Assembly: GCA_029212965.1 (NCBI GenBank)
Contig: JARGOV010000020.1
Location: forward strand, 1-40,672
From: Porticoccaceae bacterium
GTDB taxonomy: Bacteria; Pseudomonadota; Gammaproteobacteria; Pseudomonadales; Porticoccaceae
Reading direction: 5' to 3'
Length of the DNA: 40,672 nucleotides
Part shown: piece by piece, positions 5,115 through 31,088 of the stretch
Layout: the number at the start of each line of letters is the position of its first letter
Numbering within the stretch: position 1 is the stretch's first letter
Made by a program: the position numbers and the translations under genes
The notes under the pieces: model-generated
Seen by the model: the letters and a program-made list of their open reading frames with translations, nothing else
Told to the model about the DNA's origin: nothing
Databases searched by the model: none

Positions 5115-6404
5115 ATGAAAGTCCTACACACCTCTGACTGGCATCTTGGGCGCTCGCTCTATGGTCAAAAACGCTATGCAGAATTTGGTCAATTTCTCGA
5201 TTGGCTGAGCGCAACCATCGTCTCTGAACAGGTCGATATACTCCTCGTCGCCGGCGATATCTTTGATACCAGCACACCCAGCAATCGTGCACAGAGCCTT
5301 TACTACCAGTTCCTTTGCCAAGTTAGTGCTTCACCTTGCCGCCATATTATCGTGATTGCCGGCAACCACGATTCGCCGACCTTTCTCGATGCCCCGAAAG
5401 CATTGCTGCGCAGCCTCAACGTTCACGTGATCGGTGCCGCTACGGAAAATATCGACGAAGAGGTACTACTGCTGGAAGATGCCCAGGGTCGCGCCGAGCT
5501 ACTGGTTTGTGCCGTACCCTATTTACGCGACCGCGACATTCGCCAGGTGCAGGCGGGCGAGAGCCTGGCCGACAAAGATCACAACCTGCTCGAAGGTATT
5601 CGCGAACACTACGCCAGAGTAACTGCCCTCGCCGCTGCTAAGCGCCAGGACTTGGGCCTGAACATTCCCATCATTGCCATGGGCCACCTGTTCACAGCCG
5701 GCGGAAAAACCATCGATGGCGACGGTGTGCGCGAACTCTATGTCGGCTCGCTCGCCCATGTACATGGGAGCATTTTCCCGCCCTGTATCGACTATGTCGC
5801 GCTCGGCCATCTCCATGTGCCGCAAAAAATTGGCGGGGCCGAGCACATTCGCTATAGCGGCTCCCCCGTGGCCATGGGCTTTGGTGAGGCCACCCAACAA
5901 AAAAGTGTCTGCCTTATTGAGTTCAGCGCTGAGGCTAATAATCTGGGGACTAACAATCTGGCGGCTAATAATCTGGCGACTACGGGCGCGGTAAAGCCTG
6001 ACGTAACATTACTCAATGTGCCGGTATTTCAGCCGCTTCGACAAGTGAGTGGCAACTGGGCGAGTATAGCCTGCGAGTTACGCAGCCTTGTCGATTCTAA
6101 CGAATCCGTGTGGCTCGAAGTCATTTACCAGGGTGATGAGATTGTCAGCGATTTACGCGAGCGTCTTGAAACATTAACCGAAGGCAGTGAATTACTGATT
6201 TTGCGGATTCAAAATACGCGGCTGATAGAGCGCGTACTCAACGCCAGTGACACCGACCAAAGCCTTGAAGACCTCGATGTAAACGATGTGTTTGCGCGCT
6301 GCCTCGCAGCCCATGATGTACCCGAAGACCAGCAGGCCGATTTACTGCAGACTTATCAACAAACCTTAAGCGCGATTCACCATGACGACACCCAGGCTGA
6401 GTAG
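5115..6404 (+). CDS. sbcD: Exonuclease subunit SbcD
   Basis: MKVLHTSDWHLGRSLYGQKRYAEF, VAGDIFDTSTPSNRAQSLYYQFL, VIAGNHDSP: calcineurin-like phosphoesterase motifs of SbcD; immediately followed by sbcC. Confidence 0.95.
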   Translation: MKVLHTSDWHLGRSLYGQKRYAEFGQFLDWLSATIVSEQVDILLVAGDIFDTSTPSNRAQSLYYQFLCQVSASPCRHIIVIAGNHDSPTFLDAPKALLRSLNVHVIGAATENIDEEVLLLEDAQGRAELLVCAVPYLRDRDIRQVQAGESLADKDHNLLEGIREHYARVTALAAAKRQDLGLNIPIIAMGHLFTAGGKTIDGDGVRELYVGSLAHVHGSIFPPCIDYVALGHLHVPQKIGGAEHIRYSGSPVAMGFGEATQQKSVCLIEFSAEANNLGTNNLAANNLATTGAVKPDVTLLNVPVFQPLRQVSGNWASIACELRSLVDSNESVWLEVIYQGDEIVSDLRERLETLTEGSELLILRIQNTRLIERVLNASDTDQSLEDLDVNDVFARCLAAHDVPEDQQADLLQTYQQTLSAIHHDDTQAE

Positions 6405-26145: not shown

Positions 26146-26916
26146 CTAAATCATTAAACCCATACGCATTGCGCCATCGATGCGAATACACTCACCGTTC
26201 ATCATGCTATTTTCAACAATGTGACAAGCCAGCTTGGCGAAATCTTTAGGGTTTCCACCTCGCTTGGGGAAAGGCACAGTGGCAACTAAACGGTCAAAGC
26301 CTTCCTGGCCTGTCTCCGCTTTGGCCAGAGGTGTATCGAACACACCGGGGCAAATAGTCATCACACGAATACCATAGGGCGCAAGATCGCGAGCCATAGG
26401 CAAGGTCATGCCAATCACACCGGCCTTTGAAGCAGCGTAAGCGGTATTACCCACCGGGCCGTCGTAACCAAAGATGGAAGCGACGTTGACGAAAACACCG
26501 CGCTCGCCGTCTTCATTTAATGGATCAAGCGCTATCATTTCAGTACTGGCCAAACGACAAACATCAAAGGTGCCGGTCAAATTGACATTAACCACCTTTA
26601 AAAAGCTATCGAGGGGATGGGGGCCTTTTTTATTGGTGATTTTACGGCCAATACCAATGCCCGCCACATTCATCACAATGCGCGCAGTACCCAGCTCGGC
26701 CTTTACCGTAGCTAAGGCGGCCTCCACACTATTGCCATCGGCGACGTCTACCTGAACCGCCAGACCACCGACTTCCGCGGCAATGGCCTTCGCCAATTCG
26801 AAATTCAGGTCGAGCACGGCCACTTTGGCTCCCTTAGCAGCGAGAGCTCTCACAGTGTCGGCACCGAGGCCGGAGGCTCCACCGGTAACGATGGCAACTT
26901 GATTCTTAATATCCAT
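26146..26916 (-). CDS. SDR oxidoreductase, 3-hydroxyacyl-CoA dehydrogenase type 2 (HSD17B10)-like, copy A
   Basis: TGGASGLGADT; YAASKAGVIGMTLPMARDLAPYGIRVMTICPGVFDTPLA; C-terminal NGECIRIDGAMRMG. Confidence 0.88.
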   Translation of the reverse strand: MDIKNQVAIVTGGASGLGADTVRALAAKGAKVAVLDLNFELAKAIAAEVGGLAVQVDVADGNSVEAALATVKAELGTARIVMNVAGIGIGRKITNKKGPHPLDSFLKVVNVNLTGTFDVCRLASTEMIALDPLNEDGERGVFVNVASIFGYDGPVGNTAYAASKAGVIGMTLPMARDLAPYGIRVMTICPGVFDTPLAKAETGQEGFDRLVATVPFPKRGGNPKDFAKLACHIVENSMMNGECIRIDGAMRMGLMI

Positions 26917-26979
26917 TTCTAATTCCTAAAAAATAATGAGTCGTTAATCGCACAGAGTACGGTTTTCCACTAAAAAAAC

Positions 26980-27732
26980 TTAGCCACGCAAGGCGCCATC
27001 GAGGCGAATCACTTCACCGTTAAGCATGGGGTTCTGGCAAATTTCCAGCGCCATGCTGGCAAATTCTGCGGGTTTACCGGCACGCTTAGGAAAGGGCACG
27101 CTACCGGCGTAGTCGTCGGGCTCGCCCCGCAGAACACTTGCAGCCAGTGGCGTGTTAAACACGCCAGGGGCAATCGTCACTACGCGAATACCGTAGGCTG
27201 ATAAGTCTCGGGCCATGGGCAGGGTCATACCAATGACTGCTGCCTTGGTCGCCGCATAGGCGGTTTGACCGAAGGGGCCATCAAGACCAGCGATGGAAGC
27301 GACGTTGACAATCACACCCTGCTCTTCGCCTTCTAAGTCATCGAGCTCACGAATGGCGTCGGCACCCAAGCGGCAGATATTAAAAGTGCCCGTCAAGTTA
27401 ACGGCAATTTGCTGTGTGAGTGCCTCGCGAGGCTGGGGGCCGCCCTTAGTGGCGGTACGCCCAGTAATATCGATACCTGCGCAATTGACCAGTATCCGTG
27501 GCGTGCCGTTCATTTTCCCCGCCTCCGCCAGTGCTGCAATCACTGAGGTCTCATCAGCCACATCACACTGGACCGCAGCACAGCCAAACTCGGTGGCGGT
27601 AGTTTGGGCGAGTTCTAGATTGCGGTCAAAAATCGTTACTTTCGCGCCTTTTTCAATAAACAGCTTTGCCGCGCCCGCACCCAGACCGGAGGCACCACCG
27701 GTAATGGCGACGCTAATATTATTTAAATTCAT
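26980..27732 (-). CDS. SDR oxidoreductase, HSD17B10-like, copy B (start trimmed to MNLNNISVAITGG)
   Basis: TGGASGLGAGAAKL; YAATKAAVIGMTLPMARDLSAYGIRVVTIAPGVFNTPLA; NGEVIRLDGALRG. Confidence 0.88.
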   Translation of the reverse strand: MNLNNISVAITGGASGLGAGAAKLFIEKGAKVTIFDRNLELAQTTATEFGCAAVQCDVADETSVIAALAEAGKMNGTPRILVNCAGIDITGRTATKGGPQPREALTQQIAVNLTGTFNICRLGADAIRELDDLEGEEQGVIVNVASIAGLDGPFGQTAYAATKAAVIGMTLPMARDLSAYGIRVVTIAPGVFNTPLAASVLRGEPDDYAGSVPFPKRAGKPAEFASMALEICQNPMLNGEVIRLDGALRG

Positions 27733-27733
27733 T

Positions 27734-28495
27734 TTAGGTCCCCATGCGAATAGCGCCGTCAATACGAATCATCTCGCCATTGAGCATGGTGTTTTCACAA
27801 ATTTGCTGTACCAAAGCACCAAATTCAAGAGGATTACCCCAGCGCTTGGGAAAGGGCACGGTGGGAATAATACTGTCAATCCAGTCCTGGGGAATTCCCG
27901 CTGCCAGTGGCGTTTCAAACATACCCGGAGCTATGGTCATGACGCGAATACCATAGGGTGCGAGGTCGCGGGCCATGGGTAAGGTCATACCCTGCACACC
28001 AGCTTTTGATGCCGCATAGGCCGCCTGACCCACGGGACCATCTTGTGCGACAACAGAGGCAATATTAATTACCACACCACGCTCGCCGTCGTCATCCAGA
28101 GCATCGAGACCGATCATGCCGTAGGCGGCAACGCGGGCAACATTAAAAGTACCCGTGAGATTGACTCGAATGACCCGCTCAAATTCATCCAGCGGGTGTG
28201 GCCCTTTCGCGCTAGCGGTGCGCACGGCAATATCGATACCTGCCGCATTTAAGACGATGCGCGGGACGCCGAGTTTTTCGACCACCTGCGCAATAGCGGC
28301 TTCTACTGCCGGGCCATCACTCACATCGCACTCCACCGCCATACCACCTAGCTCTTCTGCGAGCTCTGTGGCCAGGGGCAAATTGCGATCAAGCAGGGCG
28401 CACTTTGCCCCCGCTTGACTCAGAATTCTGGCGGCACCCGCCCCCAAACCCGATGCGCCACCGGTAATTAATGCGACTTGTCCTTCTACGTTCAT
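27734..28495 (-). CDS. SDR oxidoreductase, HSD17B10-like, copy C
   Basis: TGGASGLGAGAARI; YAASKAGVQGMTLPMARDLAPYGIRVMTIAPGMFETPLA; NGEMIRIDGAIRMGT. Confidence 0.88.
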   Translation of the reverse strand: MNVEGQVALITGGASGLGAGAARILSQAGAKCALLDRNLPLATELAEELGGMAVECDVSDGPAVEAAIAQVVEKLGVPRIVLNAAGIDIAVRTASAKGPHPLDEFERVIRVNLTGTFNVARVAAYGMIGLDALDDDGERGVVINIASVVAQDGPVGQAAYAASKAGVQGMTLPMARDLAPYGIRVMTIAPGMFETPLAAGIPQDWIDSIIPTVPFPKRWGNPLEFGALVQQICENTMLNGEMIRIDGAIRMGT

Positions 28496-28578: not shown

Positions 28579-28686
28579 TTATTCATGGGGTGCCGGATTG
28601 GGCTGGCGCGGTGCGGCCAACCACAATAGAAGTGGGGATACTACCGCAAGCACAGCACTGACAACCAGTATTACGCTGTATCTGCC
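28579..28686 (-). pseudogene. Orphan 3' end of an MFS transporter gene (repeat copy 1)
   Basis: Reverse strand reads GRYSVILVVSAVLAVVSPLLLWLAAPRQPNPAPHE*, nearly the C-terminus of the intact MFS gene (GGYSAMLVVSAVLAVVSPFLLWLAAPRQPNPAPHE*). 96/108 nt identical by hand count, with no gap. Confidence 0.85.
28579..28686. repeat. Direct repeat, left copy (108 bp, offset 1202 bp to right copy)
   Basis: Contains a 40-bp exact match ggtgccggattgggctggcgcggtgcggccaaccacaata (28589-28628) and a 33-bp exact match tggggatactaccgcaagcacagcactgacaac shared with the right copy. Confidence 0.9.
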
Positions 28687-28774
28687 GACAGTACCTTAGA
28701 AAAGCTGTCAAAAAAGCACTCAATAACAAGCAAATAAAATATTCTATTTGTCGTAAATTCTTTACTCTATCACC

Positions 28775-28804
28775 TTTACACAAAAGAAGGCGGCATAGTA
28801 TATT
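28775..28804 (+). promoter_or_regulatory. Candidate sigma70 promoter for the RHH-like gene
   Basis: TTTACA (28775-28780), 18-bp spacer, TATATT (28799-28804), 30 bp upstream of the ATG at 28835. Confidence 0.4.
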
Positions 28805-28834
28805 TCACTCTCTAGAAAACAACAGAGCAATCTC

Positions 28835-29446
28835 ATGGATACAACCAAAATCACAGTAAAAATTTTAGACAAACTTCTTTCCAAATTTAACGAAGCCATT
28901 AACTCGTCGTTTATTAAAAAAGATGCTTTTCTAAATTACATTATAGAAAGCGAAACAAAGGAGCTTGCTACCGAACTAGACGGGTTCATCTTGTCTGGAG
29001 AAGCTCGTCGGTATATCTCTGGAGCGCTTAAAAAAGAAGGCACAAGAACAGTCAATATTACGGTCAACAAATCTACCGCAGAAGCGCTAAATACGGTTGT
29101 AAGTAAAACAAATATATCCCGTGATGCTTTTATAAACAGACTTATTTATTTCCTTCTTGGGACACCGAAGTTACTTAAAACACTTGAGTTACCCCGCCAC
29201 ACAAACCACCCCGCCTTAGGTTCAGCTGAAGATATGGAAACAAGTCCACTTCCAGCTATAGCGTCGATTATGAAAAATCCTCTGTTTTATCTACGTATTG
29301 CTCATAACGAAATTCACGGCTGTGGCCTGTACTCATCTGGGCAGCCCATAGCACCAAACCTCCATGGTTTATGCTGCAATATTGATGACATACATGTACC
29401 AGGAACAAAGACATACCGCAAAGAATGGTCGAGTGACGATCTTTGA
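28835..29446 (+). CDS. Hypothetical protein with two ribbon-helix-helix (CopG/Arc-like) segments; antitoxin/regulator candidate
   Basis: 203 aa; two similar strand-helix-helix segments: KITVKILDKLLSKFNEAINSSFIKKDAFLNYIIESETKEL and TVNITVNKSTAEALNTVVSKTNISRDAFINRLIYFLLGTPKLL. AT-rich relative to neighbours. Confidence 0.6.
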   Translation: MDTTKITVKILDKLLSKFNEAINSSFIKKDAFLNYIIESETKELATELDGFILSGEARRYISGALKKEGTRTVNITVNKSTAEALNTVVSKTNISRDAFINRLIYFLLGTPKLLKTLELPRHTNHPALGSAEDMETSPLPAIASIMKNPLFYLRIAHNEIHGCGLYSSGQPIAPNLHGLCCNIDDIHVPGTKTYRKEWSSDDL

Positions 29447-29482
29447 TTTTGACTCCCACAATCACAACCAGAGTAACTAAAC

Positions 29483-29758
29483 ATGATTTCCAAACATTGC
29501 GAGATAAGAAGCCAACAACGTTGTATTCCACTATTTATTTTAGAATTATTGATTATATACGGCGATGAACGATTTGATGGTTATGGTGGAATAATCAGAT
29601 CTTTTTCAAAAAGAAGTATAAAGAATTTGAACAAAGAATATGGAAAAGCTTTCATCAATCACAACAAAAGATGGCTCAATACCTATCTAGTGGAAAGCAC
29701 ATCAACAGGCACTGTAATGACAGCTGGCCGAAGAACTAAACGCATAAAAAATAGATGA
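29483..29758 (+). CDS. Small basic protein of a 'HxExRxQQR-I...YGdeR' hypothetical family; candidate partner of the upstream RHH-like protein
   Basis: 91 aa; ISKHCEIRSQQRCIPLFILELLIIYGDERFDGYGGIIRSFSKRSIKNLNKEYGKAF...LNTYLVESTSTGTVMTAGRRTKRIKNR; the pattern matches widespread small conserved proteobacterial proteins of unknown function. Confidence 0.6.
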   Translation: MISKHCEIRSQQRCIPLFILELLIIYGDERFDGYGGIIRSFSKRSIKNLNKEYGKAFINHNKRWLNTYLVESTSTGTVMTAGRRTKRIKNR

Positions 29759-29780
29759 ATATAACGACCAGTGATTGGCA

Positions 29781-29888
29781 TCACTCATGAGGTGCCGGAT
29801 TGGGCTGGCGCGGTGCGGCCAACCACAATAAAAATGGGGATACTACCGCAAGCACAGCACTGACAACTAGCATGGCACTGTAACCGCC
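29781..29888. repeat. Direct repeat, right copy (3' end of intact MFS gene)
   Basis: See left copy at 28579-28686. Confidence 0.9.
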
Positions 29889-31088
29889 CGTTACATCGTA
29901 GAGCCAACCACCCAGCCAAGCACCAATGGCCGCGCCCAGCGAGCCGGAAATCGCCAGCGTACCGAAGATGGATGGGAAGAAAGGACTGGTAAATAAATCC
30001 CGAGAGGTGGCCGGAAATATTGGCGTATTGGCGCCGTAACCAAGGCCGACAAAAATCGCAAAGCTGACCGCCACCCACAGAGCCAGCATAGAGCTAAGAT
30101 AAACCAGAGCTCCGATAGCCAGAAGGTTACAAACAGCAGCCATGGTATAGGCTCGCTCGCGACCAATGCGGTCGGACAAATTCCCCCAAAACAGTTGCCC
30201 CACGATGCTAGAGATACCAATAACGCCAGCAATAAAGGAGCTTTCTGTCTTGGCGATACCCTGGTCGACCATAAAAGCAAATTGATGCATAAGTAGTATT
30301 TGCGCGACACAGGCCCCGGTCAAAAAGCAGGCACCAGCCAACCAGAAGCGGGGGGAGCGCAAGGCCGTTTCGAGTATCCAGTCACGATAGAGGGGCTCAT
30401 TGGGAACGGTGCTTGTTTCAATATCAGCTGAAGTCGTATTTTCATGAGAAGCCACCCCCTCATGGACTGGATCTTCTTCTGGCATCTTCAGCAAAAATAG
30501 CGCAGCCGGAATTACCCACGATGCCCCGAAAACAGCTAAGAAAATAAATGTTTGACGCCAACCATAAGTCTCAATCAAAGCATTAATCACCGGAACACCC
30601 ACCAAAATGCCGAGGCCAATGCCTGCCATGGCAAAGCCCAGAGCGGTACCCATTTTCGTAGGATACCAACGCTCTACAGTAACAATAAAAGGTATCCAGC
30701 CAGCCTGAGAAATCCCAATGGCCGTGATCACGCCAAAGGTAATGTAAAGCTGCCACCATGTTTGCACCTGGGAAGTGAGTAACATGCCAATTAGAAAAAT
30801 AAGCCCACCAAAAGCTATCGTCCATTGAGCACCAATCTTCTCAACCATGCGACCGTTCATAGGACCGGCTAAACCGTGGACAACACTCATCACCGAAATA
30901 GCTCCAGCGGTGAGTGAGCGACTCCAACCCATATCTTCTACCAATGCCACAAGAAAGACAGAATAGGCAAACCATACCCCGTAAACGACGCCGAGGGTGA
31001 TAAAGGCAACAAGAACGGCCATTGGCCCATGCCAAGTGTTTTTCAGGGGGGTACCAGGTGTGGCTTTATCAGGAGTTTGTACTGTCAT
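29781..31088 (-). CDS. MFS transporter, OFA (oxalate/formate antiporter-like)/monocarboxylate type
   Basis: 435 aa, 12 hydrophobic segments; VVYGVWFAYSVFLVALVEDMGWSRSLTAGAISV, FWGNLSDRIGRERAYT. Confidence 0.88.
   Translation of the reverse strand: MTVQTPDKATPGTPLKNTWHGPMAVLVAFITLGVVYGVWFAYSVFLVALVEDMGWSRSLTAGAISVMSVVHGLAGPMNGRMVEKIGAQWTIAFGGLIFLIGMLLTSQVQTWWQLYITFGVITAIGISQAGWIPFIVTVERWYPTKMGTALGFAMAGIGLGILVGVPVINALIETYGWRQTFIFLAVFGASWVIPAALFLLKMPEEDPVHEGVASHENTTSADIETSTVPNEPLYRDWILETALRSPRFWLAGACFLTGACVAQILLMHQFAFMVDQGIAKTESSFIAGVIGISSIVGQLFWGNLSDRIGRERAYTMAAVCNLLAIGALVYLSSMLALWVAVSFAIFVGLGYGANTPIFPATSRDLFTSPFFPSIFGTLAISGSLGAAIGAWLGGWLYDVTGGYSAMLVVSAVLAVVSPFLLWLAAPRQPNPAPHE

Follow-up and report, generated by a model that had tools for sequence, protein, structure and literature searches.

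An apparent insertion of a putative toxin-antitoxin-like gene pair between copies of an MFS gene 3' end in a Porticoccaceae bacterium

The window analysed here is the whole of a 40,672-nt stretch of DNA from a Porticoccaceae bacterium (GenBank assembly GCA_029212965.1, contig JARGOV010000020.1, positions 1–40,672). Between an MFS transporter gene and an SDR gene, it carries an AT-rich, two-gene cargo of 1,094 bp (28687–29780), which comparison with the sequences of congeners strongly indicates to be an insertion. The cargo is enclosed by a direct duplication of the MFS gene 3' end. Its two genes form a recurrent pair that may reasonably be read as a toxin-antitoxin-like unit, and the pair is bracketed in a comparable manner by a duplicated gene end in a genome of another class.

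The duplicated gene end and the empty sites

The duplication consists of a left copy (28579–28686, minus strand) and a right copy (29781–29888, minus strand), the latter being the 3' end of the intact MFS gene that adjoins the insertion (29781–31088, minus strand; PF07690, E = 5e-60; protein 93% identical to that of congener G004). The copies are identical at 96 of 108 positions, without gaps and in the same orientation, as an earlier note on this DNA had claimed. No other 108-bp ungapped self-match in the window scores as high; the runners-up reach at most 82 of 108 positions and all come from three paralogous SDR genes, which lie consecutively at 26146–28495. A repeat finder returned the same duplication as 104 bp at 90%, and no third copy is present in the rest of the genome (2.76 Mb, 64 contigs). 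The MFS frame is open for about 36 codons in the left copy, which reads GRYSVILVVSAVLAVVSPLLLWLAAPRQPNPAPHE followed by the stop, and an in-frame stop codon lies 5' of the matching part. As it is in the MFS frame, the left copy is not a chance match; it is a truncated duplicate with the last 36 or so MFS codons and the stop, and without the full gene.

The 12 mismatches between the copies fall at positions 2, 4, 10, 51 and 54, with the rest within 88–105, leaving perfect agreement over 40 bp (positions 11–50) and 33 bp (55–87). At the inner edge of the truncated copy, the differences are mostly amino-acid-changing (GRYSVIL versus GGYSAML). Each copy is equally far from G004 (82/108 for the left, 82/108 for the right). 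In the intact MFS gene, the final 108 bp are 76% identical to G004, compared with about 88% for the remainder of the gene (Fisher p = 0.0014), and no species stands out as clearly closest to the duplicated stretch among possible donors.

The GC content of the 1,094 bp between the copies is 0.373, against 0.483 for the window, and all 748 other stretches of the same length are richer in GC (mean 0.482). The third-position GC is 0.34 in ORF1 and 0.27 in ORF2, with neighbouring genes at 0.36–0.57. The cargo contains two coding genes only, both on the plus strand and antiparallel to the genes around them, and shows no recognisable recombinase. The earlier description of an AT-rich segment of about 1.09 kb, with two small plus-strand genes amid minus-strand neighbours and neither integrase nor transposase inside, is thus borne out.

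In four congeners (G004, G006, G001 and G005), the SDR gene (27734–28495, minus strand; adh_short, E = 4e-45, assigned also by synteny) is immediately adjacent to one MFS 3' end, without the cargo. The named records that have the same gene are Gammaproteobacteria, Cellvibrionales and Porticoccaceae MAGs. Neither a second MFS gene nor the cargo was found at this locus in any of the relatives compared, and ORF1 has no relative in six other genomes of the same genus that were searched. The single 3' end without cargo in four congeners argues for an insertion and against an ancestral MFS duplication. Insertion of the cargo between the MFS and SDR genes, which had been proposed in the earlier note, is therefore well supported by these comparisons; the alternative put forward there, a tandem MFS duplication largely replaced by the cargo, is not supported, as the relatives compared have one MFS gene here. 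The cargo was presumably acquired horizontally.

That the MFS gene was imported as a whole from beyond the clade was considered and finds no support, since the upstream part of the gene is as close to G004 as the neighbouring genes are. Along the window, identity to G004 varies from 73 to 99% in 500-bp steps. The step at 27000–27500 reaches 99%, against 87–94% in neighbouring steps, which suggests a recent exchange between species. The window contains no tRNA that could be a target. A viral origin was also rejected, as no relatives were found among viral contigs or phage records.

The ORF1–ORF2 pair

ORF1 (28835–29446, plus strand) encodes 203 residues and is proposed, from its homologues, genetic linkage, predicted structure and Foldseek matches, to be an antitoxin or autoregulator. 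The N-terminal half forms two β-α-α units in the predicted model, which is of low confidence (mean pLDDT 51.8). Searched with Foldseek, this half of the model best matches F plasmid relaxosome chains (E = 3.4e-3, probability 1.00), of which the accessory chain is TraY; AcaB and VirC2 are further best matches. All these proteins are of the ribbon-helix-helix (RHH) type. No curated family matches ORF1 above cut-off, and its homologue P0001 matches RHH_3 with an E-value of 0.008. ORF1 is thus a probable tandem RHH DNA-binding protein according to the model. It resembles the RHH plasmid proteins (F relaxosome chain, AcaB, VirC2) in the modelled N-terminal half, but differs from them by an extra C-terminal domain and by its linkage to a DUF4258-like gene instead of transfer genes. 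A possible sigma-70-like promoter (TTTACA-18-TATATT) precedes ORF1 at 28775–28804 on the plus strand, in a scan that found no more such consensus sites than in shuffled sequence.

Relatives of ORF1 were found in genome G012 (33% identity), on a Methylibium petroleiphilum plasmid (28%) and on an uncultured-bacterium plasmid (26%). On the Methylibium plasmid, RPME01, a DUF4007 gene (L044:5436-6371) with matches to SspB defence models is found two genes downstream of the relative. In G781 and G012, ORF1 is also linked to a third gene family (L149:5537-6067 and L038:8208-8972), whose two members are 31.7% identical over 164 residues (E = 1e-20) and have no Pfam or PADLOC match.

ORF2 (29483–29758, plus strand) encodes 91 residues and is proposed to be a DUF4258-like toxin of the RelE/ParE superfamily, from its alignment with proteins that match DUF4258 below cut-off. 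The window ORF2 itself matches neither the DUF4258 profile (PF14076) nor any other family significantly. Four of its relatives give weak DUF4258 matches, with E-values of 1e-3 to 1e-4, and the aligned relatives score 19.7–22.7 bits, below the curated cut-off of 25. A pattern H-R-QR-I...T is common to the aligned set of small proteins. The structure model of ORF2 is too poor for use, and sequence searches returned no meaningful relative of solved structure. Plasmid relatives of ORF2 are preceded by different partner genes, some of which show hints of a helix-turn-helix, and some relatives are located close to Zorya or Abi genes. In plasmids of Thauera and Caballeronia, a protein of about 260 residues with a weak uracil-DNA-glycosylase match is encoded 3' of the ORF2 relative (L132:3326-4105 and L134:792-1595).

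The two genes are found together at five loci: the window, the uncultured-bacterium plasmid pM02_c6, where the ORF2 relative directly follows the ORF1 relative, and three genomes in which the pair was found by profile searches. Two of these, G868 and G424, belong to the same class as the window genome, and the third, G781, to a different class within the phylum. In G868 and G781 the two genes share a 4-bp overlap, and the G868 pair is near a phage-type integrase gene (Pfam E = 5e-16). Wider searches for further copies of the pair yielded none beyond the five loci. That ORF1 and ORF2 constitute a genuine gene pair is well supported by this recurrence at the sequence level.

DUF4258 is described as a toxin family of the RelE/ParE superfamily (BECR fold), with the antitoxin gene first and an unknown target; MqsA is listed as its fusion partner (PMC11980606). 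Since the relatives of ORF2 nearly match this antitoxin-first family, it is reasonable to regard the pair as a putative toxin-antitoxin-like unit. The likeness to type II toxin-antitoxin systems with DUF4258 toxins lies in the two small co-directional genes, the first encoding a DNA-binding-type protein and the second a DUF4258-like protein. The difference lies in the partner, which here has about 200–260 residues and is predicted to combine a probable tandem RHH with a C-terminal domain. Neither ORF1 nor ORF2 has itself a PADLOC match to a known defence family, and no description of an RHH-DUF4258-like pair was found in the literature searched. The suggestion in the earlier note of a mobile or defence/toxin-antitoxin cargo agrees with the look of the genes and with the recurrence of the pair elsewhere.

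Brackets around the pair at other loci

A 2.2-kb insert in G781 holds the pair together with a third gene, between 76-bp direct repeats that are 93% identical. The repeat comprises the first 13 codons of a gene, the sequence upstream of it and one half of a terminator-like hairpin. From its sequence, we take this gene to be thiL. Three close relatives of G781 (identity across the thiL region: 96, 94 and 87%) have one copy of the repeat and no insert. Thus, at both loci, direct repeats of host sequence bracket foreign DNA, and an empty site with one copy exists. The duplicated end is the 3' end of the MFS gene in the window and the 5' end of thiL in G781. The two brackets have no common core above chance, the longest common word being 7 nucleotides compared with a mean of 6.5 for shuffled sequences. 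As in the window, no recombinase was recognised in the G781 insert. It contains an 82-residue ORF that resembles by eye an IS3-type transposase remnant, with no Pfam match.

The G781 copies differ at positions 3, 10, 11, 19 and 21 of 76, that is, at 5 of 24 positions at the edge and 0 of 52 elsewhere (p = 0.002). At both loci, the copies agree in the middle of the stretch and diverge at the edges, a divergence that is partly built into the calling of repeat ends. In the truncated G781 copy, too, the differences at the inner edge mostly change amino acids (DTISLLFK versus DAISRLFQ). The outer halves of the G781 copies are native-like and the inner halves less so.

In G424, the pair is flanked by two MITE-like units (L150:4219-4560 and 6189-6314), with ends like GGAGGCTGTCCGAGAATGC. 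This bracket is made of MITE-like ends with inverted repeats, unlike the gene-end duplicates. Overall, enclosing direct repeats of at least 40 bp were found at three of the five pair loci (two gene-end duplicates and one MITE-like set), at none of 19 other loci, which have only one of the two families or other partners, and at none of 224 control positions.

Possible routes of entry

With two cases at hand, single-crossover integration through about 100 bp of gene-end homology appears the most likely route, and we hold it with roughly even confidence. The fragment that brought in the two-gene unit would have included about 100 bp from the 3' end of a related MFS gene. It would have been circularised or end-joined before entry, and a single homologous crossover within the short MFS stretch would have produced the order gene end, cargo, gene end, the MFS gene remaining intact at one flank and a truncated duplicate lying at the opposite flank. 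The native-like outer and less native-like inner halves in G781 are as expected from a crossover between a circle and the chromosome with a diverged gene end. For the window, later gene conversion has to be assumed: as both copies match G004 at 82 of 108 positions and the rest of the gene at about 88%, native and incoming parts are inseparable. Decay of the truncated copy together with gene conversion could mimic the edge pattern. The collections searched yielded no donor in which the cargo adjoins an MFS end. About 100 bp of homology at 85–90% identity is short for RecA.

A precedent is found in E. coli, where 56 of 60 Lac- recombinants were PCR-positive for a partial lacZ duplication, and 14 sequenced duplications measured 109–950 bp; they were explained by a single crossover of trimmed, recircularised molecules, which was recA-dependent in that study (PMC3240628). 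In these integrants, as here, the cargo lies between direct repeats of a host gene end, of about 100 bp upward, without an integrase. They differ in that the constructs were made in the laboratory and the homology was identical, whereas the event here is natural and its copies are 89–93% alike.

The earlier note had favoured an integrating element that targets gene 3' ends and carries a replacement end, the displaced native end being left at the far junction. A site-specific element of this kind, its integrase lost or provided in trans, appears rather unlikely. Its classic look is present, a re-made gene 3' end repeated over 108 bp, with the gene intact on one side and its end partial on the other; the unusual distance from G004 of the terminal 108 bp in the intact MFS gene would fit, and the integrase gene near the G868 pair is in its favour. 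The cargo is, however, tiny and devoid of recombinase, the duplicated stretch occurs nowhere else in the genome, and the related G781 case is at a gene 5' end. Opposite gene ends, no constant core and no recombinase together argue against an integrase that targets 3' ends, and the equal distance of both copies from G004 does not bear out the notion of a replacement and a displaced end. The want of a common core would suit another unlikely explanation, a long target-site duplication in which the cargo was captured at a staggered double-strand break with 76–108 bp of fill-in. The non-functional copy would then have decayed, as the amino-acid changes at the inner edges of the truncated copies would suggest, but the clustering of differences at the edges does not fit, and a plain duplication would not cause the distance of the intact MFS end from G004.

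Two further explanations fare less well than these. Improbable is an HFIR-type event, with one-ended homologous recombination and an illegitimate far joint during transformation duplicating host DNA. Such events need homology on one side only and are known in competent bacteria, and the swings in identity to G004 are compatible with DNA exchange within the genus at this locus; they are nevertheless expected to delete host DNA, and the duplications in the E. coli study were assigned to circles (PMC3240628). Very improbable is an assembly artefact, in which the perfect repeat core let the assembler join the cargo of another genome. The genome is a draft in 64 contigs and the copies agree perfectly over 40 and 33 bp, but 12 positions distinguish them and each continues into unique sequence, and the same architecture occurs independently in G781. 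A speculative and improbable reading is that tandem-RHH/DUF4258 pairs travel as very small elements that insert actively and make 76–108 bp duplications of arbitrary host gene ends, the RHH protein perhaps bringing the donor circle and the target together.

Of what is new here, the recurrence of the RHH-DUF4258-like pair and the existence of a second gene-end bracket, with its empty site, are the most useful. The two loci would be natural examples, with empty sites, of toxin-antitoxin-like cargo entering a chromosome through short gene-end homology without a recombinase of its own. If the gene-end bracket is general for the pair, the movement of solitary toxin-antitoxin modules would become testable.
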